Shown here: positions 18 to 16,693 of the stretch, piece by piece
How positions within the stretch are numbered: the first letter of the stretch is position 1
Layout: every line of letters starts with the position of its first letter
Assembly (NCBI GenBank): GCA_946537975.1
Contig: CAMNGG010000239.1
Location: 1-33,652 of the forward strand
Source of the DNA: an uncultured Treponema sp.
Lineage (GTDB): Bacteria > Spirochaetota > Spirochaetia > Treponematales > Treponemataceae
DNA: 33,652 nucleotides
Direction: 5' to 3'
Program-made: the position numbers and the translations under genes
The notes under the pieces: model-generated
Seen by the model: only the letters and a program-made list of their open reading frames with translations
Told to the model about the DNA's origin: nothing
Database searches by the model: none

Positions 18-1721
18 CTATTCCTCCATCAACCATGTTCTTATGAGCATTGCAACATCTTCCGGATGTTCCTTTGCCATTGAGATTGCATTTTCCTGAA
101 GCTCCATACGTCTTGTTTCTTCGACAGACATTGTAACTTCCATACCGTCGTCCTTTGCTTCCCAAAGAGCGCGTTCGCGGGCTGCCTGCTGTTCTGCAAG
201 AAGACGTGCTTCGCGTTCGCGACGGCGGCGTTCCATTTCCTTGCTGATAATACGGAAGAGAATGAAGCCTACAAGAACAACAACAATTGCTATAAGAATA
301 AGCAGGATTGTATTTCGTCGCCGAATTGCGGCAAAGTATTCTTCATCCTCTGCTTTAAACTCCTCATCGCGGTAATAAGGAATATTAGTTACTTCAACAA
401 GATCTCCTCTTGCTCTATTATAACCAATAGCTCCCTGAATTAGTCTTACAGCTTCAGCCATTTCCTCTGGAGGAACAGGTGTATATTCACGTTTAATTGT
501 TCCATCCTCTATAATGATGTTTCCGTTATTATCTTTTATTCTCTTCCATTTTCCATCAAGGTTGACAGAAACCGAAATTTTATCGATTTTTGGAGAAGAG
601 ATTTCTGAAGTCTGTTTTGTATTGATTACGTTATTCTGAGTTACACCGGTTTCGGTAGATTTTCCGATTACGTTTGACATATCAGAATAAACCGCGGGAG
701 TCTGACCTTCTACACCGGCAGGTCCCTCCGGATTATAACCTGTTCCCTGCCACTCTTTTGTAACCGTCTGCTGACTGATTGGAAGTGTATCGCGGTATTC
801 AGAATCATCAAAAGGAGTATCCGGATTATCTGCCTTAATTTCGATTGGAGAATAAACTGTTGCCTCACTTGTTTTTTGAGACATATCCATTTCGATTGCA
901 ACGTTCATATCGCGGCAGCGGTCTTCTCCAAAAGTTCTCTGAAGAGCCTTAAGAATTTTCGCACGAAGCTCAACCTCCTGTTTGCGGATAAGCTTCTGCT
1001 GCTTTTCGATGATGCTTACACGGTCACTTTCAGCCATGCCTTCAAAATCATTAATCTGATTTCCATCGACATCAGTGATTATAAGATTTTCTTCGCGCAA
1101 ACCTTCTACAGCAGAAAGAATAAGGCGCTGAATACCAAGAATACGCTTTCTGTCCTGCAAAAGGTTACTCTGAGGGGTAGTTTTAAGAATAACACTTGCA
1201 GTAACAGGATTCTGATCTGCGGTAAAGAGCTGATTGTCCGGCAAAACAATATTGACATCTGCCAGCTGAACATCGGCAATTGCTTCAATATGCTGTTTAA
1301 GCTGTCTTTGAATAGTATTTTTAAGTTTTACATTCTGGTCTGCATCGGTTGTAGACCAGCTTCTGTCATAAAAACCTGCCCAAGGGTCAACTGATGAAGG
1401 AACAAGATTTTCAGAAATTAAAATCTCGCGCATACGGCGGGCAGTCTTATCATCACTTACTGAGATATAACCGTCTGTTGTTGTATAGGCTTCAACATTT
1501 TCCTGTGAAAGACGGTCAAGAATTTGAGTACGAGAAGTTTCGTCTGTTACCGGAGCATTAAAAAGACGGACAGTAGAAGGCTTTGCAGAAAGCTTTACTG
1601 ACGCAATTATGACTATGATTACAACTACAATTATGCCAAATAATATGACTTTTTGAATCGGTTTCCAGTTCGACCACATCTTTTTGGCCGACTCGGTAAC
1701 CTTTTTAAGCCATTCGTTCAT
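18..1721 (-). CDS. fliF: FliF, flagellar MS-ring protein
   Basis: FliF forms the membrane MS ring on which the flagellar motor and export apparatus are built. The 567-residue length is normal for the family. There is a transmembrane helix near residues 25-45, a large periplasmic part, a second helix near 472-492 followed by a basic stretch, and an acidic C-terminus ending TWLMEE, the FliG-binding tail. Residues 296-306 (KADNPDTPFDD) and 329-340 (YNPEGPAGVEGQ) lie in the periplasmic loop; close copies of both occur in the accessory protein at 15336-16040. The ATG is preceded by a strong GGGAGGGG ribosome binding site. In other spirochetes fliF follows fliE directly; here 14 kb of accessory genes separate them and fliF has its own promoter (1786-1814). 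Confidence 0.98.
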   Translation of the reverse strand: MNEWLKKVTESAKKMWSNWKPIQKVILFGIIVVVIIVIIASVKLSAKPSTVRLFNAPVTDETSRTQILDRLSQENVEAYTTTDGYISVSDDKTARRMREILISENLVPSSVDPWAGFYDRSWSTTDADQNVKLKNTIQRQLKQHIEAIADVQLADVNIVLPDNQLFTADQNPVTASVILKTTPQSNLLQDRKRILGIQRLILSAVEGLREENLIITDVDGNQINDFEGMAESDRVSIIEKQQKLIRKQEVELRAKILKALQRTFGEDRCRDMNVAIEMDMSQKTSEATVYSPIEIKADNPDTPFDDSEYRDTLPISQQTVTKEWQGTGYNPEGPAGVEGQTPAVYSDMSNVIGKSTETGVTQNNVINTKQTSEISSPKIDKISVSVNLDGKWKRIKDNNGNIIIEDGTIKREYTPVPPEEMAEAVRLIQGAIGYNRARGDLVEVTNIPYYRDEEFKAEDEEYFAAIRRRNTILLILIAIVVVLVGFILFRIISKEMERRRREREARLLAEQQAARERALWEAKDDGMEVTMSVEETRRMELQENAISMAKEHPEDVAMLIRTWLMEE

Positions 1722-1785: not shown

Positions 1786-1814
1786 AGTATAACATAGGAA
1801 GTAAAATAATGCAA
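1786..1814 (-). promoter_or_regulatory. Sigma-70-type promoter for fliF
   Basis: Read on the minus strand, TTGCAT (1814-1809) and TATACT (1791-1786) are separated by exactly 17 bp, and the -10 box is preceded by TG (extended -10, TGTTATACT). The transcript would start near 1779, leaving a leader of about 58 nt with the fliF ribosome binding site. The accessory operon between fliE and fliF would otherwise cut fliF off from the flgB promoter, so an own promoter makes sense. Confidence 0.6.
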
Positions 1815-1833
1815 ACGAAAAAATAATGAATGA

Positions 1834-1878
1834 TAGTTAGTTTTAATTAATGACTGTTAGTTAGTTATATGATAAAAT
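1834..1878 (+). promoter_or_regulatory. Candidate promoter and direct-repeat operator of the CARF/sigma/Abi operon
   Basis: The 9-mer TAGTTAGTT occurs twice (1834-1842 and 1858-1866), start-to-start distance 24 bp. A plausible promoter lies across the second copy: ATGACT (1850-1855), 17 bp, TAAAAT (1873-1878). One repeat would then sit upstream of the -35 box and one in the spacer, a layout typical of an operator for a dimeric or paired regulator. Which protein binds is unknown; the sigma-like protein of the same operon is one candidate. The region back to fliF is otherwise AT-rich and empty. Confidence 0.4.
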
Positions 1879-1916
1879 ATAGTAATTGATTTTTCCATAC
1901 GCGAGGATTTGTTTAT

Positions 1917-2555
1917 ATGAAAAAAATTGTATTCGCTGATATCTGTATGAGAGATGAACAGGCTTTTCACAAGGCCTGTTACAAAGGAAGTGGAAATGCA
2001 GGCAGCAATTACGCCGAAGAAGTATATTACCCTATCAACGCAATTCTTGCAGATAAACTGAAAAAAGACGATGACGTAAAGGTTGTTCTGGTTCAGACCA
2101 TCGATAAAGAAGATGAACGTGAGCAAAACAATGTTAAGGAAAATACTGAAAAATTCAAAGCCGAACTCAACCATATCAACGAATCAATCAATGCAAAAAT
2201 TGATTACAAAGAAGTCTGCGCAGACTATAATGAGCTCAAAGAAAATCATGAAAAGCGAATTATGACAATTCTCGAACAGATGGAAGAAGATGCTGAGCTT
2301 TACGGTGATATAACCTTTGGGCCGAGAACAGTCCCTATGGAAATGCTCTGTGCCTTTGCCTTTGCAGAACAGTTTTACAATGCTGATATCAAAAAGATTG
2401 TTTACGGTCAGGTAAAATGGGAAAACAACACACCCAAAGAGCCGCAGCTTTTTGACATTACTTCCCTGCACTATTTAAATTCCCTTACCTATAACATGCA
2501 GCCAGATACAAAAGAAGAAGCAATGAAAGCTCTTAAATTATTTTTCTCTCTTTAA
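1917..2555 (+). CDS. CARF-like sensor protein of the Cas_DxTHG / TM1812 type, stand-alone
   Basis: The 212-residue protein resembles the CARF domain of the Cas_DxTHG/TM1812 (Csx2-like) family, which binds cyclic oligoadenylate in type III CRISPR immunity. A hydrophobic strand VKVVLVQT leads into an N-terminal Rossmann-like part. The signature DxTHG appears as D131-I-T-F-G135, followed by P-R and a helix, then IKKIVYGQV and LFDITSLHYL, in the order seen in that family (D-x-T-H-G-F-R, then IxxIxYG, then xFDLTPL). The signature His is Phe here. No HEPN or nuclease domain follows, so it is a sensor or ring-nuclease-like module alone. It heads an operon with a sigma-like gene (18 bp downstream) and an Abi_2 gene. 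A GAGGA ribosome binding site precedes the ATG. The family call is from motif pattern only. Confidence 0.6.
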   Translation: MKKIVFADICMRDEQAFHKACYKGSGNAGSNYAEEVYYPINAILADKLKKDDDVKVVLVQTIDKEDEREQNNVKENTEKFKAELNHINESINAKIDYKEVCADYNELKENHEKRIMTILEQMEEDAELYGDITFGPRTVPMEMLCAFAFAEQFYNADIKKIVYGQVKWENNTPKEPQLFDITSLHYLNSLTYNMQPDTKEEAMKALKLFFSL

Positions 2556-2573
2556 TAATACCGGAAATTTCAC

Positions 2574-3311
2574 ATGGAACAAGAAGCTTTTTATGAAAAA
2601 ATCGACGAACTCTATAAGGAAATTGCAGATCAGCCGGAAGAAAACTCAAGCACTGGAAAAAAGGAACTGGCAGAGTTTCTTTTTGTAAATAATAAAAAAT
2701 GGGCTAAGTATCCTGTTCAGCTCCTTGAAACTCTTAATTACTGTCTTTCTCATTACGATAGCAGCAGAGGTGCTTTTTCAAACATGCTCACCTTTATGCT
2801 TCACCAGAAAATCGGGAATACAGAAACTGACGAAAAAAAAGATGAACAAAAACGCCGTTACAATGAAATTCCTATTGAAAAACAAAACTCCGATGGTGAC
2901 TACATATTTATTACAGACCAAGCACCTCCGACAGAACATCATTTAACTGATATTGAAAAACTATTAACAATAGACGATCTGCAGAATACCTTTGAAAAAA
3001 TTGACAAAACCCTGAAAGAGGAAGAAGAAAACCAAATGGCAAAATCTCTCCTGGCTACACGGGAAATTCTTTACATTCTAAAAAAACAGAGCTATGAATT
3101 ATTAAAGGATCCGCGGGTTTTTGAACTTGGCAAAGCCTTTGATTTTTCGAACAACCACATCTGGAATACTTTCTTCTATGATATAGATAATTTACCGACT
3201 AAGGAAGTTTTAGCCGCCTCGATGGGTATTAAGAAAAGCAATGCTTCAAAAATGATGACCCGCTTCTACGAAAGGCTAAAAGTTTCAGTTGATAAAATTA
3301 CAACCATGTAG
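2574..3311 (+). CDS. Sigma-factor-like DNA-binding protein
   Basis: The 245-residue protein has two features of sigma-70-family proteins. Near residues 60-75, YDSSRGAFSNMLTFML resembles the region-2 start seen in ECF-like sigma factors, where a D-P-x-x-G-x-F-x-x-(F/Y)-L pattern is common. The C-terminus (about 208-238) holds a helix-turn-helix of region-4 type: LPTKEVLAASMGIKKSNASK then MMTRFYERLK. The middle is charged and variable. It could equally be a non-sigma transcription factor with a sigma-4-like HTH. It lies between the CARF-like gene (18 bp) and the Abi gene (13 bp), so the three are probably co-transcribed. A CARF sensor beside a sigma-like factor recalls, without being homologous in parts, the CRISPR-Lon system that releases a sigma factor. 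Confidence 0.5.
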   Translation: MEQEAFYEKIDELYKEIADQPEENSSTGKKELAEFLFVNNKKWAKYPVQLLETLNYCLSHYDSSRGAFSNMLTFMLHQKIGNTETDEKKDEQKRRYNEIPIEKQNSDGDYIFITDQAPPTEHHLTDIEKLLTIDDLQNTFEKIDKTLKEEEENQMAKSLLATREILYILKKQSYELLKDPRVFELGKAFDFSNNHIWNTFFYDIDNLPTKEVLAASMGIKKSNASKMMTRFYERLKVSVDKITTM

Positions 3312-3324
3312 GATAATTACCAGC

Positions 3325-4284
3325 ATGTACAGTTTTCAGGATTTAGCCAACCATCTTAAAGATGTTCACAAGTTGCCTGTGGATCCGAACCAGATTCAGG
3401 ATTTAAGAAACATCGGTTATTACCACGGCTACAAGGGTTACCGCTTTATACGCAAAGCCGGAAATCTTATTAACTTTACAGCATTTGGACAGATTGTTGA
3501 TCTGAACAATTTTGACATGCAATTAAAAGGTTTATTCTACCCAAACCTTATGTTTATAGAAAACGCATTAAAAAGTTATGTTCTTGAAGCAACTCTTGCT
3601 GAATGCCAAAGTGAAAAACTCAATGACGTGTATAAAAAGGGGCTTACATATTATTCAGAATTTTCTGCAGGAACACCTCCGTATAAAAAAGAATTTAAGC
3701 GACGTATGGAACTTGAAATGAAAATTTCAAATGCCTTGATTCGTGACTATATGTCTGATAAAGCAATTGAAGTTCATTTTTACAATCAAGATAAAGAGAT
3801 TCCTATCTGGGCCGCTTTTGAAAGTCTTACACTTGGTGAGTTTGGAACTTTTTTTGCCTGCTCGAATAAAACTATCAGAAATAATGTTTCAACTTTATTA
3901 AACTTACCGACAAATCTTAACAGCGACAGCTTCCTGCTCAAAGAAATCATTTTTTCTCTTAAAGATTTACGTAATTCTATTGCACATAATGGAATTATCT
4001 TTGATACCCGTTTTGCAACGAGCAAAGTTCCAAACAGAATAAAAAGGCTTATAGAAAATGAGTTGAAAATAAATCAAATTGATTTTAATTATATTGTATC
4101 TTACATTGCATTGATTATTTTTCTTCTTAAACAGATGGGGGAAAACCGCAGGGCCAAAAGCTTTATCAACGAATACGTAAAGCTTCAGAACATGCTGAAA
4201 AGACTCCCCCCTAACACAAGCATTAAGATTTTTGGTTCTCAGGATGCAGCTGTTGTTGCTGCAATGCTTAAATATGTCTCTTGA
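3325..4284 (+). CDS. Abi_2-family abortive infection protein (HEPN-type RNase)
   Basis: The 319-residue protein has the Abi_2 (AbiD/AbiF) layout: an N-terminal part with the family-typical I-G-Y-Y-x-x-x-x-Y stretch (IGYYHGYKGYRFI), FYPNLMFIENALKSYV, a central IPIWAAFESLTLGEFGTFF, and a C-terminal R216-N-S-I-A-H221. The last is the R-x4-H catalytic motif of HEPN ribonucleases. Abi_2 proteins stop phage growth by growth arrest or cell death, probably through RNA cleavage. The reading frame extends to a TTG at 3289 that overlaps the previous gene; I choose the ATG at 3325 because AGGA precedes it and family homology begins there. It is the last gene of the CARF/sigma/Abi operon and is followed by a terminator. 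A CARF sensor upstream of a separate HEPN effector is notable. Confidence 0.8.
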   Translation: MYSFQDLANHLKDVHKLPVDPNQIQDLRNIGYYHGYKGYRFIRKAGNLINFTAFGQIVDLNNFDMQLKGLFYPNLMFIENALKSYVLEATLAECQSEKLNDVYKKGLTYYSEFSAGTPPYKKEFKRRMELEMKISNALIRDYMSDKAIEVHFYNQDKEIPIWAAFESLTLGEFGTFFACSNKTIRNNVSTLLNLPTNLNSDSFLLKEIIFSLKDLRNSIAHNGIIFDTRFATSKVPNRIKRLIENELKINQIDFNYIVSYIALIIFLLKQMGENRRAKSFINEYVKLQNMLKRLPPNTSIKIFGSQDAAVVAAMLKYVS

Positions 4285-4350
4285 TTTTTCAGGACTTTTA
4301 CAGTATATTAATAAATGAATTGAAGCAGGATTCCTTCGGGAGCCTGTTTG

Positions 4351-4386
4351 AGGGAGAGGATACGTTCGTCTCCCTTCATTTTTTTA
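4351..4386 (+). terminator. Rho-independent terminator after the Abi gene
   Basis: A 7-bp stem AGGGAGA/TCTCCCT (4351-4357 with 4369-4375) is followed within a few bases by a run of seven T. A second weaker hairpin with a TTCG loop (about 4322-4348) lies just before it. The T run overlaps the stop codon of the convergent radical SAM gene. Confidence 0.65.
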
Positions 4387-4953
4387 AAAGGGCCAGCCGT
4401 TACTTAAAATCTCTTTTTCTGAAATCAATATTTCCATTGAGTGTTCCTTTTTTTCATACTCAATGCCCTTTTTATATCTGTCAGATAAAAAAATAACCTT
4501 CTGATTTTTTGATCCAACCCAATCGCGTTCTGAATCTGGCTGAGTTTTATCATAGAGCCCGTCAATAAGAATATCTGTATTTGCAAGTAATTTTCTCACA
4601 GAAGGCTCTTGTGTTTTCAAAAGAGTTTCATATAAAAAACCGGTAAAAACCAGAACAGAAAGATTATTTTTTTTACACCACTCGGCAACAAGACTTAAAC
4701 CTTCCGCCTGCAACAAAGGCTCGCCTCCAATAAAAGAAACCCCTTCTATTTTAAAATCTCTTTTTGCCTTTTCGATTATCTGTATAAAATCAGAAACCTC
4801 TACAATATGAGCCTGAGAAAAAGTCTGCATTTTCTGATTGCAGCAGTCAGGACATCTTTGTTTACAGCCCTGCACCCACAAAGCAAAACGCTTTCCGGGT
4901 CCTTCAGATTCTGTACAAAGTCTGACTGCTGCCAGGTTTAAATACGTTGCCAT
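4384..4953 (-). CDS. NrdG-like radical SAM protein (4Fe-4S activating-enzyme type)
   Basis: The 189-residue protein is a short radical SAM enzyme of the anaerobic ribonucleotide-reductase-activase/4Fe-4S single-cluster type. The cluster ligands are C30-x3-C34-x2-C37 within WVQGCKQRCPDCCNQ; SFIGGEPLLQ (GGE at 76-78) is the SAM-binding motif. Such enzymes cleave SAM to a 5'-deoxyadenosyl radical, usually to make a glycyl radical in a partner. No glycyl-radical enzyme (nrdD-like) is present here. It is the last gene of a five-gene operon (9 bp after the AAA+ gene), so its substrate is more likely the ATPase, a neighbour protein or a nucleotide. Family assignment is firm; function in this operon is unknown. 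Confidence 0.85.
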   Translation of the reverse strand: MATYLNLAAVRLCTESEGPGKRFALWVQGCKQRCPDCCNQKMQTFSQAHIVEVSDFIQIIEKAKRDFKIEGVSFIGGEPLLQAEGLSLVAEWCKKNNLSVLVFTGFLYETLLKTQEPSVRKLLANTDILIDGLYDKTQPDSERDWVGSKNQKVIFLSDRYKKGIEYEKKEHSMEILISEKEILSNGWPF

Positions 4954-4962
4954 TATTTCAAA

Positions 4963-6792
4963 TTACACAAAATCAAAATCAAAAATTTGTCTAATAAGTG
5001 TGATTTTTATTCTTCGCCCTTCTACATTATCAGAACGCATAAAAATCCATTCAGCAAGCGGATTCACTATATAGGTTTCTATAGTGTTTAAAAGACCGCG
5101 ACCACCATTTGCTACTCCAGCTTTCTCTGCAATAAATTTAAACGCCTCATTCTCGTTTTCAAATTCAAGACTTGCCTTGTACTTCTCTTTTACGAAATTT
5201 TCGACAGCAATAAATTTTGCTTTTGCAATTTGAATAAATACATTCGAATCGCTGATAAAGTTGAACGCCACAATATTGTCGCCGATTCGGTTCAAGAGCT
5301 CCGGGCGTTTCAATTCTTTAACAAAATGCTCTTTTACCTTATTAACAAAAGTTTCACGAACCAGCTTCGCATCCATACCGCTCGGATTTACATCTGCTGC
5401 ACCTATATTTGAAGTAAAGATGATGATTGTTTCCGCAAAAGAAACTGTCTCACCTTTTCCGTCAGTAAGGCGGCCGTCTTCCAGAATCTGCAGGAATTTA
5501 TCCAGAATGCGGCCATGTGCCTTTTCTATTTCATCAAACAAAATTACACAGAAGGGCTTTTCTTTTACCGCATTCGTAAGCTGTCCGCCTGCCTCATAGC
5601 CTACGTATCCCGGAGGTGCACCAACGAGTCTCTGGTCGCTCTGCTCGTGGTTATACTCAGACATATCAAAGCGAATGCAGGCATTTTCATCACCAAAAAC
5701 AAATTCTGCCAGAGCCTTTGCAAGCTCAGTTTTACCGACACCAGTTGGACCTACAAAGAACAAGGTGCCCTTTGGCTTTTTCTGCTTTGCGGAATGCTGT
5801 AAACCAGAGAAACCTGTATAGGCACGGATAATTACTTCCTTTACCTTATCGATTGCCTGAGGCTGCCCCTTTACTCTGGCCGAAAGTCTATCTTCAATTT
5901 CCGCTAACTTTTCTTTTGAAAGCTCCTCCCATGGGCTAACCTTTTCTCCATATTTATAGAGATTAATCAGCTTTTCAAAAGTCATTGTTTCTGAATTCTG
6001 TCGGGAAAGCTTCATAAGCTGGGCAATTTCTTTCAGAGAAAAGCCGTCAAGCGCATCAAGTAAATCATCAAATATTTTTTTATCATCAATATTCTGAGAG
6101 ATTTTTAGACAGGTCTTGTTTTCTGAAAGAAAGCTTTCACGCTCACTTCTGGCCGGAAGTGGAATATTTACAGAGCTTACAAGGGGATTATTCAGATAAT
6201 AAGATGGAGGAATCATAGCATTATTTTTTGTAATAAGAACAACAATATTTCCTACCGCTTCAAAATTTGGAGAAAGTATATCATAAGACTGAGAATCCTT
6301 GAGAGTCTTCCCCAGAACTGTAAGATACTGACGTTCAGCATCTGAAAGAGAATTTGCGTTTCCAAAGATAAAATCTGAATAGTCAAGAATGAAAGCGGTT
6401 TTTCCACTGCCTCCGCTTATAGCCTGCAGCATATATGGAAAAAACTCTGCCGGATTTGTATAGGTGTTTGTATTTACCACATCTTCACCAGCAGACTCGT
6501 CCTCACCCAAATCGTAATCGTTGCCACCTGCCTGTTCAGAAGCTGCAGAATTCGTAATCTCAATCTTGTCAGAGAATTTAAGGTCTATTCCGCTCACTCT
6601 ATCCCATTTTACAACCTTCTCGTACCCCTTGCTTTTCAGATTTTTCATAACAATTTCTACAAGACTGTCATATTTTCCCTGATTCAAAGCATCAAAATAA
6701 ATATCATCTGTATTACCAAAAAGAATAATTGATGATTTAATTCCCGCATCCCGGTTAAACCTGTCGAGCCAGGCCATTTTACTTTCTGCCAT
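4963..6792 (-). CDS. ClpA/ClpB-type AAA+ ATPase with atypical N-terminal half
   Basis: The C-terminal half (about 290-609) is a Clp/Hsp100 D2-type AAA+ module with all catalytic parts: Walker A GPTGVGKT (348-355), Walker B VILFDE (416-421), aromatic pore loop GYVGYE (395-400), sensor 1 TSN (460-462), arginine finger R502 in RPELLNRI, and sensor 2 in GGRG (563-566), ending in the small D2 subdomain. The N-terminal half (1-280) replaces the normal N and D1 domains. It contains Walker-B-like TAFILDYSDF (132-141) and VVLITKN, suggesting a decayed AAA+ fold, with an acidic linker near 90-105. I see no ClpP-binding tripeptide loop, so it probably remodels rather than feeds a protease. The gene starts directly at the stop codon of the previous one (TAAATG). 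At 609 residues it is shorter than ClpB (about 860). Confidence 0.88.
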   Translation of the reverse strand: MAESKMAWLDRFNRDAGIKSSIILFGNTDDIYFDALNQGKYDSLVEIVMKNLKSKGYEKVVKWDRVSGIDLKFSDKIEITNSAASEQAGGNDYDLGEDESAGEDVVNTNTYTNPAEFFPYMLQAISGGSGKTAFILDYSDFIFGNANSLSDAERQYLTVLGKTLKDSQSYDILSPNFEAVGNIVVLITKNNAMIPPSYYLNNPLVSSVNIPLPARSERESFLSENKTCLKISQNIDDKKIFDDLLDALDGFSLKEIAQLMKLSRQNSETMTFEKLINLYKYGEKVSPWEELSKEKLAEIEDRLSARVKGQPQAIDKVKEVIIRAYTGFSGLQHSAKQKKPKGTLFFVGPTGVGKTELAKALAEFVFGDENACIRFDMSEYNHEQSDQRLVGAPPGYVGYEAGGQLTNAVKEKPFCVILFDEIEKAHGRILDKFLQILEDGRLTDGKGETVSFAETIIIFTSNIGAADVNPSGMDAKLVRETFVNKVKEHFVKELKRPELLNRIGDNIVAFNFISDSNVFIQIAKAKFIAVENFVKEKYKASLEFENENEAFKFIAEKAGVANGGRGLLNTIETYIVNPLAEWIFMRSDNVEGRRIKITLIRQIFDFDFV

Positions 6793-7920
6793 TTACATGT
6801 TCCCCCTTTTTGAATCGCTTGAAGCACTTTGTGTTCTTGAAAGACGGTCTGGATTTTCCCAGATTACCCGTTCATCAGAAAATTTTACGGAATAGATTTT
6901 TTCCAAATCTACATTAAATTTTTCAATTTCTTTAAGACAGGTCATACCCTCATAATTATCAAAACGATAATTCAGCTTTCCCTGAAGATTGATTTTACAG
7001 GTTGCTTGTTTGCCAGACGGCTTTTTTGCCTTTATAAGAACATAGGAATTATTTCCCTCTCCAAGAAGCTGAGGCTTTTCAACTGTAAATTCCTGAGACC
7101 TCAATTCCTTTATTATTGCCTTTACGGTTTCGCGACGAACCTCTTCATCTATAAGAGAATTGTCTACCTGAGCACGAAGAGCATTAATCTTTTCTGTTAT
7201 TTCTTCTACTGAATTTTCCATAGACAGATTTTCTTTCAGCTGTGACATTTCAATAAGGAGCTTTTCTTTATTTGCTTCGTTTTCAAATTTTTCATTCTCT
7301 ACAGATTTTATTGCATCATTAATCTGATTTGTCATAATTTCAAGCTTTGCTTTTTCAAGCTTTTGTTTTTTCCATTCTGCCGCTTTTTCTTCTGCAATTT
7401 CAGCTGCTTTTTCAATTTGCTTTATAAGCTCTGCTTCTGCAGTAATTTCTTCATTTTGTATTTTGGTTTTTATTTCTTCTAATTCCTTAAGTCCAAAATT
7501 TGCAAGAGCAGGATTTTTGATTTCACTTAAGCTAGAATAAAAAGCCTCTTCCAGCTTAGATTTTGCCTCGGCCTTTTTACGCTGTATTTCTTCATAACGG
7601 AGTCTTTCCTGACGGGCAAATTCTTCTTTAGCAGAACGTACAAGAAAAGCTATTGAATTTAACATACTTTCTGTTTCATAACATAAATCACGAGCCGTAA
7701 GGGGATCGCTTGTTATTATAGAAGAAATGTTCTTTATATTACGGGCAAGATTTTTCATTTCATCAGGAACATAGGAATCGAAAGCGTCATTTTTCATCTG
7801 TTCAAAACGAGCAGAAATTTCTTTTAACGCTTTCTCAGAATAATCGGCAGCTCTCTTATGTTCCAGTTCTTCCCTTCGTTTTCGTTCTAATTCATACCTT
7901 GCATCTAACTCGTGACTCAT
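6793..7920 (-). CDS. Coiled-coil protein with a conserved-looking C-terminal domain, unknown function
   Basis: I do not recognise the 375-residue protein. Residues 1-270 are highly charged (Lys/Glu/Ala-rich) and predicted to be mostly coiled coil. From about 275 to 365 there is a compact domain with the look of a real family: E-F-T-V-E-K-P, YVLIKAKKPSGKQA, YRFDNYEGMTCLKEI, a hydrophobic helix, and VIWENPDRLSR at the end. The gene overlaps its upstream neighbour by 4 bp (ATGA) and is followed with no gap by the AAA+ gene, so the three products are probably made in fixed ratio. A role as adaptor or substrate-binding rod for the AAA+ ring is my inference. Confidence 0.8.
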   Translation of the reverse strand: MSHELDARYELERKRREELEHKRAADYSEKALKEISARFEQMKNDAFDSYVPDEMKNLARNIKNISSIITSDPLTARDLCYETESMLNSIAFLVRSAKEEFARQERLRYEEIQRKKAEAKSKLEEAFYSSLSEIKNPALANFGLKELEEIKTKIQNEEITAEAELIKQIEKAAEIAEEKAAEWKKQKLEKAKLEIMTNQINDAIKSVENEKFENEANKEKLLIEMSQLKENLSMENSVEEITEKINALRAQVDNSLIDEEVRRETVKAIIKELRSQEFTVEKPQLLGEGNNSYVLIKAKKPSGKQATCKINLQGKLNYRFDNYEGMTCLKEIEKFNVDLEKIYSVKFSDERVIWENPDRLSRTQSASSDSKRGNM

Positions 7921-9986
7921 TTTTTTCCTCCGTTATTCATTTTTTTATTTGCATTCATTTTTGCTTCAAATACCTGATTGTATTTTTCAGATTCCTTTAT
8001 ACTTCCGTATATTTTTTCGAGATTGTGCAGATTACTTCTCCAGGAATTTATGAACTCATTCAGTTTTTTCTTATCTGTTTCTGTACTTATTTTGATACAG
8101 AGCTCATACAACTTAAAAACCCTTTCTTCAAAATCCCAATGTGCAGTCTTTATTTTTCCTGTAAAGACTTTTTCAAAATAATCATTTTTTGCCTTCTCAG
8201 AATAAAACTTTCCCCAGATCCCCTGCTTATTCAAATAACCATGAAAGCCTGGTGCTTTTTGTTTAACAAGGTCAATAAGAGCCCAGACATCTTCCAGCGA
8301 ATCTGTTGGCTGCAGACAAGGAATAACTGCTTTTAAGAGCTCTGTCAAAACCTGATTTTTTATAGCAGGGTTCTTTGTATATTCTTTTATAACTTTTATT
8401 GCAGAAGGAAAATCCTTTACAGTCTGCTTTATCTGATTTTTATCAATCAAGGAATCAGCAACAACTTCATTTGAAAGCAGTTTTTTTCCGGTCAACTTAA
8501 GATTTAACTGATTCAGTTCATTTAAAATTTTGTCTTTATCGCTTGCAGAATGGTCGGCAACAAGCTTATCTAAAAAGCCGTTAAATTCCTTTTTTAAGCC
8601 GTTCTCTTCATTTAACAAAAGCAGAACAGCAGGCTGACTTTTATAATACTGCTCAACTATTGAAAGAATACAGTCCCTTACATTCAATTCATTTTTCTTT
8701 GGAATATAGGAAAAGGTTATATCTCTTGAAACATCCCCAGCTCTTACAGGGAATTTTTCTGCTTTTATACAAAAAAGATTGTTTACATAAATACACGCAG
8801 AATGAATTACCGCTTCCGGTGCTGAAGGAATTGTAACAATAAGTCGACCGCTTTCTGCCTTTACCGCTAATTTATTCGCATTGAATACAATAACAGACTT
8901 CACGTCTTTGTTTTTATTTTTGCCATCCGAAATTTTCTGAAAAAAGTTTTCTTCATTGAAGAAAGAATTTTCAACTATAAAAGCTTTACAGTTATTATTA
9001 CCGGTAGCATAATTAATACGATACTGAACATTTTTTATGGAATGTTCAAAATTGCTTATCGTATCACTTGAAAACAACAATAACTCCTGGACCTGTGAAT
9101 CAGGCTTTGTAATTGAAGATACAGGACATACTTTCAGGCTTTCTGGAGGATTATTTTCAAAGTTTTTAAGACTTTCTTCCTCAAGTTCAACAGCTTTATT
9201 ACCTTCAAGCTTCCAGAGGAGTCCATCTTTTAACTGAACTTTATGCTTACTGTTTTCATAGCAGACATTGCGTTCACTTGGAAACACAGCACTAATCTGG
9301 GTATCTACTTTGAGCCAGTCAATTTTCTTTTGCTTAGCTTTCTTATTTTTCTTTTTATTATCCTCTGCCTGCGGCCAGTTTTTAGACAGCATTGCTTTTA
9401 CAAGTGGATCGTCTGCCAGGCTGTCTGTCTGTTTCTTTTTGTCCTGATTTTCAGTTTCCGGTTTTTGAGCTTCCAGATAATTTCGGATTTGTTTCTCTGG
9501 AAAATATTTTTCATTACCCTCTTCTTCAAGAGGTATATAATTACCTTTAGGCTCAGAAGTAAAATTATTTCTGTCGGTAATCAGCTTTTTATTTAAAGCA
9601 TCATATACTACATTCACTATATCTCTTTGCTCTTCTGCCGGCAAAAAGCCCTTCTGCTGCATTTCTTTTCCAAGCGGTAAAACTTTTACATCGCTAAGCT
9701 TAAGCTGGTTAAGAGTAGTATCATCTGTAAAGTCCTTACAGTTTACAGCACTTAAATCGTAAAGTGTTTTTAAAACAGGCATAATAAGTTTTTCAGGATT
9801 ATCAATCATAAAATATTTTTTGAAAAAATCCTCGAGGTTTTCATTCTGAAATTCACTTCCCTCGGCTTTTATAAGCGCTTCCAGAAAAAGCCATTCAAAA
9901 GCCGTAGACTTACGGGGAGTAAGATGCGAAACCATAACTTTATATTTCATATAAGGATGTGCTATTATTTCTTCACAAACTTCCAT
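7917..9986 (-). CDS. Large protein of unknown function in the helicase/AAA+ operon
   Basis: I do not recognise the 689-residue protein. The first 150 residues look helical and winged-helix-like, with LKLSDVKVLPLGKEMQQKGF and LP near 96-117 and repeated aliphatic helices. Residues about 180-230 are a Lys/Gln-rich linker (KKKNKKAKQKK). Residues 240-460 contain several beta strands (KSVIVFNAN, GRLIVTIPS, VIHSACIYV), and the C-terminal third is helical. There is no signal peptide, membrane helix or clear catalytic motif. It starts 12 bp after the helicase stop and overlaps the coiled-coil gene by 4 bp, so it is an integral part of the operon. It could be a scaffold or nucleic-acid-binding partner of the helicase. 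Confidence 0.8.
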   Translation of the reverse strand: MEVCEEIIAHPYMKYKVMVSHLTPRKSTAFEWLFLEALIKAEGSEFQNENLEDFFKKYFMIDNPEKLIMPVLKTLYDLSAVNCKDFTDDTTLNQLKLSDVKVLPLGKEMQQKGFLPAEEQRDIVNVVYDALNKKLITDRNNFTSEPKGNYIPLEEEGNEKYFPEKQIRNYLEAQKPETENQDKKKQTDSLADDPLVKAMLSKNWPQAEDNKKKNKKAKQKKIDWLKVDTQISAVFPSERNVCYENSKHKVQLKDGLLWKLEGNKAVELEEESLKNFENNPPESLKVCPVSSITKPDSQVQELLLFSSDTISNFEHSIKNVQYRINYATGNNNCKAFIVENSFFNEENFFQKISDGKNKNKDVKSVIVFNANKLAVKAESGRLIVTIPSAPEAVIHSACIYVNNLFCIKAEKFPVRAGDVSRDITFSYIPKKNELNVRDCILSIVEQYYKSQPAVLLLLNEENGLKKEFNGFLDKLVADHSASDKDKILNELNQLNLKLTGKKLLSNEVVADSLIDKNQIKQTVKDFPSAIKVIKEYTKNPAIKNQVLTELLKAVIPCLQPTDSLEDVWALIDLVKQKAPGFHGYLNKQGIWGKFYSEKAKNDYFEKVFTGKIKTAHWDFEERVFKLYELCIKISTETDKKKLNEFINSWRSNLHNLEKIYGSIKESEKYNQVFEAKMNANKKMNNGGKK

Positions 9987-9998
9987 CTTTAAACTCTC

Positions 9999-12900
9999 CT
10001 AACCTTTAGCTTCGTTATATTCTTTCAAAATATTTTTTTCAACTTCTGTAGAAATCAGTTTTGCAGAGCCTGCAAAGCAGCCATGACGTTTCAAGTCATC
10101 AATTATATTTGCATAAACAGGCAGCGTAAGTTCACCTTCCGAATCCATTTTTGGAATAGTAATTTTAAGATGATTGTAAGTATGCTCTGCCCCAACAATA
10201 AAAAGCAGATTTTGTGCACGCGAAAAAGCAACGTTAATTCGCTCATAAGTTACAACATGCTTTGAAGCATTACCTTGCTTATTATTACGGACAAGGCTCG
10301 TTATAATTATGTTCTTTTCCTTACCCTGAAAGCGGTCTACAGTATTTACATCAATATCAATAGCTTCAAAGGCATCCTTGAATTCTTTTGAATTACGGAT
10401 TTTTCTAACCTCGGCTCGAATTTCATTTACCTGGCGCTGATAGAAGCTGATTACTCCTACTGAAACCGCATCTTTTTTTCCAAGCCCCTGCTTTTTATAC
10501 TCTGCCGCAATCTTTTTCAAAAGCTCTATTATCAGATACTTTTCCATAATATTGCAGGCAGAGGTACTGTTCTGACGGAAAGTTTCATAAATTGGCTTTG
10601 GAGCATTTTTAGTGCTGCTAGGCAAAAACGATGAATCAAGCCAGTAAACGTGTTTTTTTGGCTGAATGAACGAAGAACCGTCAATTCCATCAATCTTGAG
10701 ATTATGGGCTTTTTCTTTATTTTCAACCTCGGGAGAATTACCGTTCTGCAGTCTGCCGTCATAAAAGCGATTAATAACATTCATAATATCAGAATGCATA
10801 CGGTACTGAGTCAAAAGCGAATGCTTTATCTTTTCATCAGCCTGTTCAAAGTAAGCCTTAAATAGAGAAGCAGTTACCATATTTTTAAACTTATTAAAAT
10901 TATCCTCGTTAAGAACCTGTCTTAAGTCTTCTTCCTCCTCGCTTAAATCATCAATCATCTCTTTGTAAGATTTTTCATGTTCTTCAAACATTGGAGGAAG
11001 CTGTCGGTGGTCTCCTACGAGTATTACCTTTCCAGCCTTCATAAGAGGAATAAGCAGTTCAGGAGGTGTAGCCTTACTTACCTCATCTATGATTACTACA
11101 TCAAAATTATCAAAGCCTTTATCCGAAAGATCTTTCATGTTGCTTGTACAGGAAACACCCACTACATTGCAGGAATTAATATAGGAGTCCAGAAAATACT
11201 CATTATCATACCGATAGGTATTTTCATCATCCAGCTTCTGGCAGAATTTCTGCATTGTTTCGCCAAAGCCAGTGCGTAAAAGCTTTGATTTATTCTGTTC
11301 AGATTCCAGCTGCTTTAAACGCAATTTTATTGCCTCTGACAGCTCTATACCATTTGCGGCTTCAGAAAGCTCATAGCGTGAACACAACTCGCGGATTTGA
11401 CTTGACTTAGACTTTCGCTGTCTGCCTTTATCTTTAAGCTCCTGCTTAAGAGTATTTATTTTTCCTTCCAGAGCATTCTTAGCTTCCACAAGAGACTTCA
11501 TTCCTTCTGACGAATTAGACTGTATTAATTGCTGCATTTTTTTCAGCGAGTCATTAACAGAGTCTTTCCATTGATTATAAACAGACTCAAGCAGGCGGCC
11601 TACTGAAGTCTTGTCGCTTTTGCATTTAGCCTGCAAATCTGCAGAAAAGGCTTTGCGAATCTCAGAGGATAATTCGATACCACCTGAGATTGAAATCTTA
11701 TCTCTTTTAAGCTTCAGACTATCCCATTCTTTTTTCTTTGTCTGGCTGAGTTCTTCATTTCCAGCGTCAACCGCTTCAAGATATTGCTTTTTTACAATTT
11801 CAATCTGTGCATTCAAGTTTTCGAATTCTGAATCTCCATTATTTGAACCGCTTGTTTTCTCTAAATTCTCAGAAAGCTTTTTAAACTCTAACATAACAAG
11901 ATGATTTGCTGAAATAAAATTGTCGGGTATAGTTATACCATTGCTTTGCGCAAAGTCCCTTATCGCTGAAAGCTCATTTCTTAGCACTGAAGAAAATTCA
12001 TCTGGAAGAACATCGTAGGGTTTTCCGTTATCAATAAAGGCCTTAAAGGCATCAAGCTTACGGCGAAGATTTTCCTTATCTGAATTAGCGGCTTCTATTT
12101 TCCTTAATTCTTCTATAGTTTTATTATATTTTGAGTTTTCTGTATCTATAGTTTTGTTAAGTTCTTCAATTTGAATTCCAAGCCCATCAAAATCTTTCTG
12201 CAACAAAGTTACATCGCGTAAATCCTTATTACATTGATTAATACTTTTATCAACGCCATTCCAGCCGTCAAGAAATTTTGAAGATATAGATTTTGAAAGC
12301 GATTGGTAATAATACTTTAAAGCGTCTTTTTCGATGTATTTACATTCCTGCTCTTCATCATTCTTCTTTTTCTTTTTGCCACCACGACCACCAAGTCGAA
12401 TTGCACGAATAGAAGGATTATTTGAAAGTCTGTCCAAAGCGTTATCAACCGCATCATTAGACTGAGAAGAAACAAGAACACGAAGTCCTTTACGGGCAAA
12501 CTGATAAATTATTTCAGCGATTACTGTAGTTTTACCGGTTCCAGGAGGTCCCTGCAGCAAAAACAGTTCTTCTGCATTTAAAGCTTTTTCTACAGCCTCT
12601 TTCTGATTTTGATTCTGAGCAATTTTTGGATTCGCCCATTCTGTTATTTCTGCGGCTTCTCTTGCAGGAATCGCTGCCTGTTTTACATCAAAAAGCCAGT
12701 TAATAAGAGTTTGAGAATAACAGTTACCCTCTTCAAGGTTGCTTATTGCCTGTTCAAATCTTCTTATAAGCGCAAAGTCACCAGCGGCAGAAAGTGCAAT
12801 AAATCCATTTTTTGGAATAGCAGAAATATAGTCTTCGATTTTTGTATCATTTTCTGTATCATCCGATTCATCTGCTGACTCCCCTTCCTGCTCCTCTGAG

Positions 12901-14048
12901 GGCTCCTCTTCTTTAGCTTCCTTTAATAATTCATCGGGAAGCTTATAGGAAGCATCGACTATAAAAGCATGCTGAAACTGCTCCTTTAATTCTTCTACTG
13001 AGAAAGTATTATCGCTGCTATTTATAATAGCATTATCTTCCTCTTTTGAAGATGGATGTTTATGAGCAAGCTCTGGATTTTCTTCTGCGCTGCCAGTCAG
13101 TTCCTCTTCGTACGAAAAACCTTGCAAAAAGCCCAAGCTGTTAGTGATATTGTCACCAAAAGATTTTTTACATTTTCTTACATACATCAGTTCTCTATCA
13201 TAATTAAACTTCCAGAAATCAAGCGAAATAAGATTATTAAAAATACAGGCATCGCGTTTTATATAGCGTTTCTCTTTTTCAAAGACTTCTTTTGATTCGA
13301 AGATTAAACTAAAAGTGATTGTCTTAGTTTCTTTGTTGTATTCGAAGTCAAAATATTTAGCACCATGAATCTGTTTATTTGTAATTTCCTTACGCCAATC
13401 CAGGTATTTCTTCCATTGTTCAAGATTATCCATTGCATTCTTACGAATAGATGGTAATGATGCAAGAAGAGTTGTAAAGTTTAAATCAGAAGGATTAGGA
13501 TTTGGAAGAAAAGACAGTTCACATTCGGCTTCAAAGTCCTTTTTTTCGGTTTCCTGTATTATTTGAATTGAATCTATTATGCTTATCCCTACTTCGCCTT
13601 CCTCTGTTATAAATCTGTGGCCAAGAAAAAGCAGGGTTTCATTTTCCTCAAGGTATTTGTCACAAAAGTCTCCTTCGCTTCGCACAGGACGAATTCCAAA
13701 CTGTATTTTGTCACTTGATGGAGAGAGATTTCGTATATAATACTTTTTTGATAAACCTGGTACAAAATTTTCTTTTATAATGGAATTAAGGAGAGGATTG
13801 ATTTCAGCATCAGAATTATCTGCTATTTCCTTTAACTTTGGACTATGAGCAAGCAAATTTCTTTCATTTTCTTTTCTATTTTTTAAACTTGGAATCCCCT
13901 TATTGAGCTGTATACAGACTTCTATTGATTTATTATTTTTTGAAGAAGTATTTTTTGGAGCCAAAGAATCCCACCACTCTTGTATAAAATCTGCAGCCTT
14001 GTCTATGGCATTTAAATCTATATCATTAAGTACATTATCTTTTTGCAT
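9999..14048 (-). CDS. UPF1/DNA2-like superfamily 1 helicase with long N-terminal extension
   Basis: The 1349-residue protein heads the five-gene operon. The SF1 helicase motifs are complete: Walker A GPPGTGKT (500-507), the Ia-like VLVSSQSNDAVDNAL, Walker B VVIIDEVSKA (D988), motif III VGDHRQLPP (about 1009), motif IV LTQYRMHS (about 1083), motif V VDRFQGKEK (about 1240) and motif VI INVAFSRAQ (about 1275). This is the AAA_11/AAA_12 pattern of UPF1/DNA2/SMUBP2-type enzymes. About 400 residues between motifs Ia and II are coiled-coil-rich, a large insertion. The N-terminal 480 residues are unrecognised, with a very acidic linker near 375-405. Such helicases act on DNA or RNA; which one cannot be told here. 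The ATG is only 5 nt from a TATAAT box, suggesting a leaderless mRNA. Confidence 0.92.
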   Translation of the reverse strand: MQKDNVLNDIDLNAIDKAADFIQEWWDSLAPKNTSSKNNKSIEVCIQLNKGIPSLKNRKENERNLLAHSPKLKEIADNSDAEINPLLNSIIKENFVPGLSKKYYIRNLSPSSDKIQFGIRPVRSEGDFCDKYLEENETLLFLGHRFITEEGEVGISIIDSIQIIQETEKKDFEAECELSFLPNPNPSDLNFTTLLASLPSIRKNAMDNLEQWKKYLDWRKEITNKQIHGAKYFDFEYNKETKTITFSLIFESKEVFEKEKRYIKRDACIFNNLISLDFWKFNYDRELMYVRKCKKSFGDNITNSLGFLQGFSYEEELTGSAEENPELAHKHPSSKEEDNAIINSSDNTFSVEELKEQFQHAFIVDASYKLPDELLKEAKEEEPSEEQEGESADESDDTENDTKIEDYISAIPKNGFIALSAAGDFALIRRFEQAISNLEEGNCYSQTLINWLFDVKQAAIPAREAAEITEWANPKIAQNQNQKEAVEKALNAEELFLLQGPPGTGKTTVIAEIIYQFARKGLRVLVSSQSNDAVDNALDRLSNNPSIRAIRLGGRGGKKKKKNDEEQECKYIEKDALKYYYQSLSKSISSKFLDGWNGVDKSINQCNKDLRDVTLLQKDFDGLGIQIEELNKTIDTENSKYNKTIEELRKIEAANSDKENLRRKLDAFKAFIDNGKPYDVLPDEFSSVLRNELSAIRDFAQSNGITIPDNFISANHLVMLEFKKLSENLEKTSGSNNGDSEFENLNAQIEIVKKQYLEAVDAGNEELSQTKKKEWDSLKLKRDKISISGGIELSSEIRKAFSADLQAKCKSDKTSVGRLLESVYNQWKDSVNDSLKKMQQLIQSNSSEGMKSLVEAKNALEGKINTLKQELKDKGRQRKSKSSQIRELCSRYELSEAANGIELSEAIKLRLKQLESEQNKSKLLRTGFGETMQKFCQKLDDENTYRYDNEYFLDSYINSCNVVGVSCTSNMKDLSDKGFDNFDVVIIDEVSKATPPELLIPLMKAGKVILVGDHRQLPPMFEEHEKSYKEMIDDLSEEEEDLRQVLNEDNFNKFKNMVTASLFKAYFEQADEKIKHSLLTQYRMHSDIMNVINRFYDGRLQNGNSPEVENKEKAHNLKIDGIDGSSFIQPKKHVYWLDSSFLPSSTKNAPKPIYETFRQNSTSACNIMEKYLIIELLKKIAAEYKKQGLGKKDAVSVGVISFYQRQVNEIRAEVRKIRNSKEFKDAFEAIDIDVNTVDRFQGKEKNIIITSLVRNNKQGNASKHVVTYERINVAFSRAQNLLFIVGAEHTYNHLKITIPKMDSEGELTLPVYANIIDDLKRHGCFAGSAKLISTEVEKNILKEYNEAKG

Positions 14049-14053
14049 ACTTA

Positions 14054-14146
14054 ATTATAGCATATATATATTCAAAAGTTGACACGAAAAAAAACATTTT
14101 TTTCAAAACTCTCTGTCAACTTTTCCCACTCCCCACTCTATATAAT
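14054..14146. promoter_or_regulatory. Symmetric divergent promoter with 11-bp inverted repeat
   Basis: A perfect 11-bp inverted repeat, AAAAGTTGACA (14074-14084) and TGTCAACTTTT (14114-14124), flanks a 29-bp centre. In each direction the near arm reads TGTCAACTTTT and is followed after 14 bp (minus) or 16 bp (plus) by a consensus TATAAT (14059-14054 minus; 14141-14146 plus). Start codons follow after 5 nt and 4 nt. The arms thus occupy the -35 position of both promoters but do not present a consensus -35 in that orientation. This suggests an activator or repressor box, or an alternative -35, controlling the five-gene operon and the plus-strand trio together. Confidence 0.65.
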
Positions 14147-14150
14147 TAAC

Positions 14151-14636
14151 ATGGACACAATAAGAATAATTTTAACCTGGGGCGGCGTTGGAGTCGCAAT
14201 TGGAATCGGGATTGTTGCGGTTATTGCCGTAGCAGTCAAACTAAGCGAGTTTTACGCAAAGCTTTTCCCTAAAAAGGATTTGCCCAAAGTTGATTTTCTG
14301 GAAAGCCAGCTGAATACCATGGGGCGCGACTATGTAGTTTTTTCTTACGAGATGAAAATGGTAACAAAGCTGCTGGTAGAAAAACTCAAGGACCTGCGTT
14401 TTGATCTCTGGAGTCTGGATTACATTCTTCCCACTATTTCTATTGCGACGGCGAACTTCCCCGCAGGAAAAAACTGCGCAATCAGAATTGAAGGAAAAGA
14501 AATCTTTAACGGGGAAATTGCAGCGCAATATTCAGATGAAAAAAAAGCAGACTTCATAGCCTGGAAAATCAGAAAGTATTTTGAAGCAAAAGAAAAGGAA
14601 GAAAAAACAGCTGAAGAAGGAGGAAAGGTAAATTGA
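14151..14636 (+). CDS. Small protein with N-terminal membrane anchor, unknown function
   Basis: I do not recognise the 161-residue protein. Residues 4-30 form one Gly/Val/Ile-rich transmembrane helix; the rest is soluble and charged, including LPTISIATANFPAGKN and a Lys/Glu-rich C-terminal helix. The frame extends upstream to a TTG at 14079, but that codon is part of the inverted-repeat promoter, so I start at the ATG at 14151. No ribosome binding site precedes it, and a TATAAT ends 4 nt upstream, so the mRNA would be leaderless or start slightly later. First gene of a plus-strand trio; the next gene starts inside its stop codon. Confidence 0.65.
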   Translation: MDTIRIILTWGGVGVAIGIGIVAVIAVAVKLSEFYAKLFPKKDLPKVDFLESQLNTMGRDYVVFSYEMKMVTKLLVEKLKDLRFDLWSLDYILPTISIATANFPAGKNCAIRIEGKEIFNGEIAAQYSDEKKADFIAWKIRKYFEAKEKEEKTAEEGGKVN

Positions 14637-15349
14637 AAGATCACTTTATTGGAATGAAGGATAATGTTCTTTACCTTCGAGAGTATGGTTCTAACTGGAC
14701 TTCTACCTATGATTCGGAAGAATCTCTTTTATCTACGGATGCAGAAATGATTTTTGAACATACAATCAATAATCTTAAGTTTGGAAATGATATTCTGCTG
14801 ATTAAGGATTCTTCTTCGAATGATTATTTTGATTTTGGAATCAAGATTACTAAAGAAGGTTTTATACCAAATAAATCTCTTCTGGGACTGTATTCTCTCT
14901 GCAAGGCTGAAAATAATTCCACTTATCCTATCACCTCCCGCCTGAATGTAAAATTCAACAATTATTATTCCGTCACTTCTTTTTTTGAATGCCCGGGTCT
15001 TACAACAGAAGTGAAAGACAAAACTGAATGGATGAAACTTTTTAAGCTTTTGGAAGAAGCCGGAAAATCCGTTGGCATTTATTGTCTGCATTTATTTAAA
15101 ACTGATGAATGTAAAGCCGGAGCAAAACTCCTTCTGGCCGCTGATGATTTATATAATCTGAAATCCGCGTCAAAACTTTTCCGTAACGCAGGAAACAATT
15201 ACGAAGAATACTTTTATCAGAAAGAAGAATGTAGTTCGTTTCTTAAGACTATTTCTAATCGAGAAAACATCAAAATAGAAAAAGATGATGCCCACCGCGT
15301 CATTTTTGAAAACACAAACAAAGGAGATGTGAAAAATGAAAAAGAATAA
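14633..15349 (+). CDS. Unknown soluble protein, TTG start, coupled to its neighbours
   Basis: I do not recognise the 238-residue protein. It has no signal peptide or membrane helix and is rich in aromatic residues and Asn/Ser. A TTG start overlaps the preceding gene's TGA stop (TTGA), and a strong GGAGGAAAGG lies a few nt upstream, which supports this rare start. It overlaps the next gene by 14 bp. The three plus-strand genes are therefore translationally coupled. Nothing in the sequence indicates an enzymatic role. Confidence 0.7.
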   Translation: MKDHFIGMKDNVLYLREYGSNWTSTYDSEESLLSTDAEMIFEHTINNLKFGNDILLIKDSSSNDYFDFGIKITKEGFIPNKSLLGLYSLCKAENNSTYPITSRLNVKFNNYYSVTSFFECPGLTTEVKDKTEWMKLFKLLEEAGKSVGIYCLHLFKTDECKAGAKLLLAADDLYNLKSASKLFRNAGNNYEEYFYQKEECSSFLKTISNRENIKIEKDDAHRVIFENTNKGDVKNEKE

Positions 15350-16040
15350 TTTTCTTACAAAAATAGTGATTATGTTCCTTGCCCTTATAATTACAGCAAG
15401 CACAAAAGCTTTTGCTGCAGGCCGTTATAATCCGGAAGGATCAGCTGGTGTCGAAGGACATTTTTCGGCAATCATAAAAGCTGACAATCCAGATAAGCCT
15501 TATGATGATGCAAATGGACTCGTTTCCCGCTACTCAAAGGGTGAAGAAATTGTCAGTTCCGTAGAAGAAATTGAAATGCCTCTACGCCAGACTGACTATG
15601 GTAAGTACTATGATGATTTCAACCGTCGTGTTTCAAATGAGATTCGTCCCGAAGCTAAAAAGCTTTTTATTGAACAGGAAAAATCAAAAGAAATTACGAA
15701 CCTTGATGACGCTATAATGCCTCTTATCAAAAGAGGTTTATCGGAAGATAGAGATTATTATTACTACTATGCATGGCCGGAATACAAAGTCAACTCTGCT
15801 CTTAATAAATATCCGGTTGCTTTTTATGATTCACTGGGAAGAAAGATTTCTGATGATTTGATTGAAGATGCTGCTAAGCTTTATGAAAAGCAGAAAAGAC
15901 ACAGAGAACTTACAGACTGGAGTTCGACCAGCGTAAGCTCTATCTGGTGTTACATCTGGGGAACTGTAAAGTTTATAATTACACTTATGATTCTCTTCTT
16001 TATTGCGGCTCTCTTTTATAAAAAGGTGATTAAAAAATAA
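15336..16040 (+). CDS. Secreted, C-terminally anchored protein carrying FliF-like peptide motifs
   Basis: The 234-residue protein has a signal peptide (1-27, cleavage likely at AFA-A) and a C-terminal transmembrane helix near 208-228 followed by KKVIKK, so the body should lie in the periplasm. The mature N-terminus begins A-G-R and then YNPEGSAGVEG (31-41) and IKADNPDKPYDD (47-58). FliF of the same window has YNPEGPAGVEG (329-339) and IKADNPDTPFDD (295-306), in the opposite order. By hand count the DNA agrees at about 29/36 and 28/36 positions in the two blocks. The rest shows no similarity to FliF; it has a tyrosine-rich patch (YYYYYAWPEY). Third gene of the trio, overlapping the previous one by 14 bp. 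Function unknown. Confidence 0.75.
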   Translation: MKKNNFLTKIVIMFLALIITASTKAFAAGRYNPEGSAGVEGHFSAIIKADNPDKPYDDANGLVSRYSKGEEIVSSVEEIEMPLRQTDYGKYYDDFNRRVSNEIRPEAKKLFIEQEKSKEITNLDDAIMPLIKRGLSEDRDYYYYYAWPEYKVNSALNKYPVAFYDSLGRKISDDLIEDAAKLYEKQKRHRELTDWSSTSVSSIWCYIWGTVKFIITLMILFFIAALFYKKVIKK

Positions 16041-16043
16041 TCG

Positions 16044-16139
16044 CTGGTTGAGTGCTCGCGAAGCGAGTGTATCGAAACCAAATTAGACGGTGGGTATAAT
16101 GGTGGTTTCGATACGGTGCCTCGCACCACTCAACCACCA
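16044..16139. repeat. REP-like palindromic element (GGTTGAG...TCGAAACCA family)
   Basis: Two arms in inverted orientation: TGGTTGAGTGCTCGCG at the left with ATCGAAACCA, and TGGTTTCGATACGGTGCC with CACTCAACCACC at the right, about 20 bp apart. The left arm contains its own small hairpin CTCGCGAAGCGAG. A related element lies at 21135-21209, and the tandem repeat at 18662-18781 looks derived from the same core. Here it separates the end of accessory region 1 from the convergent fliE stop and may act as a bidirectional terminator. Confidence 0.75.
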
Positions 16140-16150
16140 TTACTTATTAA

Positions 16151-16633: not shown

Positions 16634-16693
16634 TGTCATCCCGAACTTGATTCGGGATCCATTTACAGATGCTGAAACAAGTTCAGCATGACA
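16634..16693. repeat. Double-hairpin intergenic repeat (TGTCATCCCGAA type), copy 1
   Basis: A 60-bp unit with ends TGTCA/TGACA containing two hairpins, CCCGAA-TTCGGG and ATGCTGAA-TTCAGCAT. A close second copy lies at 27105-27165 between hslV and hslU. Just upstream (about 16610-16628) is a separate small inverted repeat CTAACG/CGTTAG. It lies in the flgC-fliE gap within one transcription unit, so its hairpins would be in the mRNA. Confidence 0.85.

Follow-up and report, generated by a model that had tools for sequence, protein, structure and literature searches.

In the Salmonella MS ring, residues 305-354 of FliF form a flexible loop at the top of the collar, according to the available part of PMC8270960, and loops within residues 309-331 extend out of the collar to bind the rod, one of which does so in the FliE/FlgC groove (available part of PMC11528121). 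Conflict islands with CARF proteins are described in PMC7159879 (available part), as are the MoxR-vWA ternary systems. In the literature searched, by titles and abstract openings, we found no description of FliF-loop copies in other proteins. Here we report that a loop of FliF, rod-facing by position, recurs in non-FliF exported proteins of one Treponema genus, among them the product of a gene inserted between fliE and fliF in a rumen-type Treponema.

The window, i.e. the whole 33,652-nucleotide stretch of DNA analysed, is a contig of an uncultured Treponema sp. (GCA_946537975.1, CAMNGG010000239.1; genome G000) and comprises the following features:

18-1721, minus strand: fliF, 567 aa (PF01514 and PF08345; 12dr_A at 2.5e-118)
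705-737, minus strand: YNPEGPAGVEG of FliF, residues 329-339, overlapping the longest invariant run of 19 FliFs
804-839, minus strand: IKADNPDTPFDD of FliF, residues 295-306
1808-16148, no strand: insertion between fliF and fliE, absent from the relative G077
1917-2555, plus strand: CARF protein of the island (PADLOC CARF2, PDLC01820, 2.9e-71; TIGR02221 8.9e-10, below its cut-off)
2574-3311, plus strand: protein beside the CARF gene, sigma-like by eye, no family match
3289-4284, plus strand: Abi_2/AbiD protein (PF07751 9.3e-28; AbiD 3.2e-26)
4963-6792, minus strand: AAA ATPase of the island (PF07724 2.2e-51)
9999-14048, minus strand: UPF1/MkoA-like helicase of the island (PF13087 1.9e-41; MkoA 3e-112)
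14151-14636, plus strand: gene A, judged by eye to encode a membrane protein, with its start set by alignment
14633-15349, plus strand: gene B, 238 aa, 14-base overlap with C; gene order shared with the homologues in G105, G021 and G090
15336-16040, plus strand: gene C (P0001), 234 aa; predicted to consist of a signal peptide followed by a disordered FliF-like tail, a core in the periplasm and a C-terminal membrane helix
16151-16552, minus strand: fliE, named by eye, beside flgC/flgB; adjacent to fliF in G077

While fliF and fliE are separated by 41 bases in G077, they lie about 14.3 kb apart in the window, confirming that gene C sits within an insertion that parts the two, as originally predicted. 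Judging by its gene content, this insertion appears to be a defence-like CARF conflict island, with putative anti-phage activity, inside the flagellar operon. The CARF2 protein (PDLC01820) was detected in all five islands scanned, i.e. in those of G105 (9.3e-85), G021 (5.2e-77), G090 (4.7e-57) and G025 (4.6e-88) besides the window. Radical-SAM genes are also present in the window island, and the same fliE-fliF site in T. bryantii holds different cargo. MoxR (bpMoxR) and vWA genes diverge from the module A-B-C in G021 (L009 6407-10092), again as different cargo beside the module; among the scanned proteins of the window island, no MoxR ATPase and vWA pair of the ternary type was found. Intergenic repeats occur at 16037-16138 and 16634-16693, with several more copies on both strands in T. 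bryantii.

Gene C is the third and last gene of the module A-B-C, whose genes overlap or adjoin. Its reading frame, checked for coordinates and phase, is open over all 234 codons and is laid out as follows:

15336-15416, plus strand: signal peptide, 27 aa (hydrophobic segment 4-29; probable AFA cleavage site, by eye)
15426-15458, plus strand: block b, YNPEGSAGVEG, residues 31-41; 27 of 33 bases as in the window fliF
15462-15509, plus strand: block a, FSAI-IKADNPDKPYDD, residues 43-58; 28 of 36 bases over the last 12 codons, plus an upstream extension against T. bryantii fliF
15933-16028, plus strand: predicted C-terminal membrane helix, residues 200-231

In an AlphaFold monomer, residues 28-69, tail included, have pLDDT values below 50 and are probably disordered, so that the FliF-loop sequence falls within a segment predicted to be both exported and flexible. 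C is probably an inner-membrane protein, with a tail that would be periplasmic and disordered in vivo. Neither a Pfam family above its cut-off nor a PADLOC family matched gene C, its predicted fold (mean pLDDT 62.8) gave no match at E ≤0.001 in a PDB search, and the prediction for B (pLDDT 44) was unusable. The YscJ/FliF ring domains (PF01514/PF08345) were absent from C in the Pfam search, which leaves the loop as the sole part in common with FliF and bears out the claim that the remainder of C is unrelated to it.

In the window FliF, IKADNPDTPFDD precedes YNPEGPAGVEG by 22 residues; in C, the order is reversed, with YNPEGSAGVEG directly after the signal peptide and IKADNPDKPYDD at residues 47-58, just as had been noticed from the sequence. 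The accompanying estimate of about 80% agreement in DNA stands: the IKADNPDKPYDD block gives 28/36 and the YNPEGSAGVEG block 27/33, the earlier count of 29/36 being reached if the codon before it is included. The two best ungapped blocks between C and FliF score 60 and 59. Out of 1000 shuffles of FliF, two reached the first score and none the second (largest second score, 42), and the corresponding scores were at most 40 and 39 for 15 other window proteins and at most 35 and 32 for the two tail-less homologues of C. Compared with fliF of T. bryantii NK4A124 (G105), block a is prolonged upstream (FSPIVIK vs FSAI-IK, one codon missing). There is good support for reading the tail as a rearranged fliF piece: its blocks agree with fliF at the DNA level, one of them continues upstream in the comparison with T. 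bryantii, and the two homologues located away from the flagellar genes lack them. The original proposal of a rearranged fliF piece is supported as to the gene of origin, but not as to the window's own copy: the tail DNA is nearer to fliF of G015 (59/69 bases) than to that of the window (55/69), and the module has moved.

Relatives of C were found in 4 of 196 genomes of the genus and 4 of 274 of the family, the present genome included, and a scan of a named genome collection returned the same three further copies and no more. Two copies have the FliF-like tail, both at the fliE-fliF site (G000 and T. bryantii NK4A124). In G021 and G090, the module is located elsewhere and C is devoid of the tail, the linker after the signal peptide being another stretch in G090 and almost lacking in G021. 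This variability of the linker, the confinement of the tail to copies at the fliE-fliF site and the match to fliF DNA at about 80% would all be expected if a fliF fragment had been passively captured, i.e. copied and rearranged into a free linker while the module adjoined fliF, and then tolerated. We consider such a capture possible, if somewhat doubtful, since the module has spread with its tail kept. Synonymous divergence between G000 and T. bryantii is lower in the module (dS of 0.25 for A, 0.11 for B and 0.21 for C) than in the flagellar genes (0.41 for fliF, 1.70 for fliE, 0.85 for flgC and 0.87 for flgB), and the module was therefore exchanged after the lineages split, with the tail aboard. 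Furthermore, the changes within the tail are mostly synonymous between the two copies, with 4 synonymous and 1 non-synonymous over 39 codons (omega 0.07; Fisher p 0.011; small counts, as the test is based on these 5 changes), compared with 13 and 7 in the core (omega 0.12). Tail and core are under similar constraint. Over the last 35 codons of C (15933-16040), dS climbs to 0.68, compared with about 0.18 before them, and recombination may therefore have had a breakpoint near the 3′ end of the gene.

Within FliF itself, the loop is exceptionally conserved: GTGYNPEGPAG is the longest invariant run in a set of 19 FliFs whose identity to the first otherwise falls as low as 48%. Treponema FliF 293-345 is bracketed by Salmonella FliF residues 284 and 347 and maps, by this bracketing and not residue by residue, to region 285-346. 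The 6scn chain used for the mapping is presumably Salmonella FliF. This region spans the rod-binding loops (309-331), and the Treponema loop corresponds by position to these loops of Salmonella (PMC11528121, available part). A mimic docking to the collar, as envisaged in the original prediction, would have to be recast: the motif is part of the collar's own loop, and a mimic would more likely bind the partner of FliF than FliF.

Copies of the loop also exist in proteins other than C. A loop DNA pattern matched in 89 of 196 genomes of the genus, and the 30 pattern loci that were read were mostly FliF, with a DUF4349 lipoprotein in G076 and a 124-aa membrane protein in G025; the second loop place in the present genome (contig C19) encodes the same 124-aa protein. 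At the protein level, the search covered the FliF loop and the stretch before it, and a 36-aa loop query matched in 185 of 200 genomes of the genus. Row-by-row reading of 35 of these 200 (30 with at least two matches and 5 with weak ones), the remaining single matches being taken as FliF, by frame length where given, revealed at least eight non-FliF places at E <1e-3 (G025:C9 and the identical G000:C19, G002, G095, G244, G076, G116:C55 and G164:C183), with strong matches from 5e-15 to 1e-6. A weaker set (E 0.003-0.18) included DUF4349 proteins in G174, G069, G058, G164, G171, G116 and G087, TPR proteins in G171 and G058, a VIT/DUF2135 protein in G084 and a LysM protein in G068; its DUF4349, TPR and VIT/DUF2135 members share families and linker positions with the strong matches. 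Besides C, the carriers thus fall into five families (DUF4349 lipoproteins, VIT/DUF2135, TPR, LysM and the 124-aa membrane protein), a recurrence that, in a search covering the loop and the stretch preceding it, also speaks against passive capture.

Single weak matches (E >0.01) could be random, and chance or convergence in low-complexity linkers might be invoked more widely. However, the reversed peptide matched in 6 of 200 genomes at E ≤10 with a best value of 0.52, and no shuffle reached the second-block score of C; for the strong carriers, their E-values already contradict such an origin, which we judge very improbable overall. On reading the frames, weak matches in G243, G077, G121, G159 (two places), G167 and G096 were judged to be chance, as plainly was a DnaX-like linker among the weakest, and a candidate in G016 was a true FliF cut at a contig end. 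Frames at E >0.4 were read in part, and motif-a matches were followed up to E 0.05. Matches were present in 60 of the 61 genomes from other genera, and FliF-sized frames account for all of those at E <0.1 save one in G248 (E 0.002), a 229-aa frame that is presumably a FliF fragment. We found no support for gene conversion by the fliF of the host itself: for three carriers and 58 FliF segments, synonymous differences between carrier and FliF (0.50-0.59) were about as large as those separating FliFs of different species (0.52).

In nine of nine representative carriers, a predicted hydrophobic segment precedes the motif. Among 25 DUF4349 linkers displayed (of 30 fetched), the motif was clear in two; it is missing from most of these linkers and from two of the four C proteins and is therefore not essential to those families. 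The G084 VIT/DUF2135 protein (L096 634-3531) has a linker with two pieces of the FliF loop in swapped order, VYSDIS before EWTGTGYNPE, and the order swaps in C and G084 would fit independent short motifs. Occurrence in unrelated periplasmic proteins had been named as a refutation of a flagellar link should it prove common; further exported proteins do contain the motifs, but rarely, and restricted to the genus among the genomes searched. Such rare copies, placed in linkers that follow a segment for export or membrane insertion, argue for a shared docking peptide rather than a sequence devoid of meaning. The partner need not be flagellar: the peptide could be a short linear motif directed at another widespread partner in the envelope (a scaffold, a peptidoglycan-associated protein, or a processing or modifying enzyme) that FliF uses as well. 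The variety of carriers, LysM protein and DUF4349 lipoproteins included, and the varying subsets and orders of sub-motifs, as in G084, would suit this explanation, which is nonetheless unlikely given that the known partner of the Salmonella counterpart loop is the rod (PMC11528121, available part) and that rod genes were present in all ten carrier genomes tested.

The 124-aa membrane protein, which is not homologous to C, lies within the CARF island of G025 and matches TIGR00206 at positions 259-341 (4.5e-6, below cut-off). Besides CARF2, this island encodes a helicase of the MkoA-like type, a PP2C-like phosphatase, a kinase-like protein and proteins that look vWA-like by eye. Two CARF islands therefore encode two non-homologous membrane proteins, each with the loop. 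G000:C19 (L049) and G025:C9 (L099) are 100% identical over 5,751 bases, although they belong to the genomes of two species; mis-binning and very recent transfer are both possible for this shared contig, the end of a CARF island. Viral contigs contained no exact match to the loop DNA pattern and no relative of C or of the 124-aa protein, and plasmids no match to the latter.

Taken together, we tentatively favour, over passive capture, the tail of C as a selected docking or decoy peptide, because it occurs only in the fliE-fliF copies, the module spread with it and few amino acids changed, and because the loop recurs in exported families, chiefly behind hydrophobic segments, in genomes that, where tested, have rod genes. 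In mature C, the N-terminus would form a disordered tail in the periplasm, assembled from two rearranged fragments of the FliF collar-top loop. By analogy with Salmonella, it may bind the same partner as the FliF loop, i.e. the proximal rod (FliE/FlgC groove), and in this way anchor the membrane module of the island at the basal body or compete there with FliF; unrelated exported proteins of the genus would have gained the same peptide repeatedly. This partner is putative, as would be any consequence for motility or defence. As a counter-reading to the docking peptide, a general habit of fragment capture is possible. A bolder extension, in which the rod-facing loop serves as a portable periplasmic address tag, shown piecemeal and in whatever order, by which islands and envelope proteins reach or block the flagellar base, coupling defence to the motor, is speculative and rather unlikely.

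If the tail binds the partner of FliF, a flagellar docking peptide would have been reused by non-flagellar proteins, and a CARF-type defence-like island would be directly linked to the flagellum. Were it a mere captured fragment, unrelated exported proteins within a single genus would still clearly have acquired one flagellar peptide again and again. The loop peptide, used as bait, offers a simple route to the partner of the most conserved stretch of Treponema FliF.

Compared with the CARF conflict islands and MoxR-vWA systems of PMC7159879, the present islands have in common CARF2 in all five, MoxR and vWA in G021, and AbiD and the MkoA-like helicase in the window. They differ in the A-B-C module with its FliF-like tail, for neither of which there is a family; FliF is not mentioned in the available part of that paper. 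DUF4349 lipoproteins (PF14257) resemble C in that some have the loop in the linker after the lipobox, but they are unrelated to it and the majority lack the motif. As for the rod-facing loops L1-L3 of the Salmonella MS ring (PMC11528121, available part), the peptide falls within the equivalent part of Treponema FliF, where it contains the longest invariant run, whereas in the carriers it appears without the FliF ring domains, fragmented and partly reordered.
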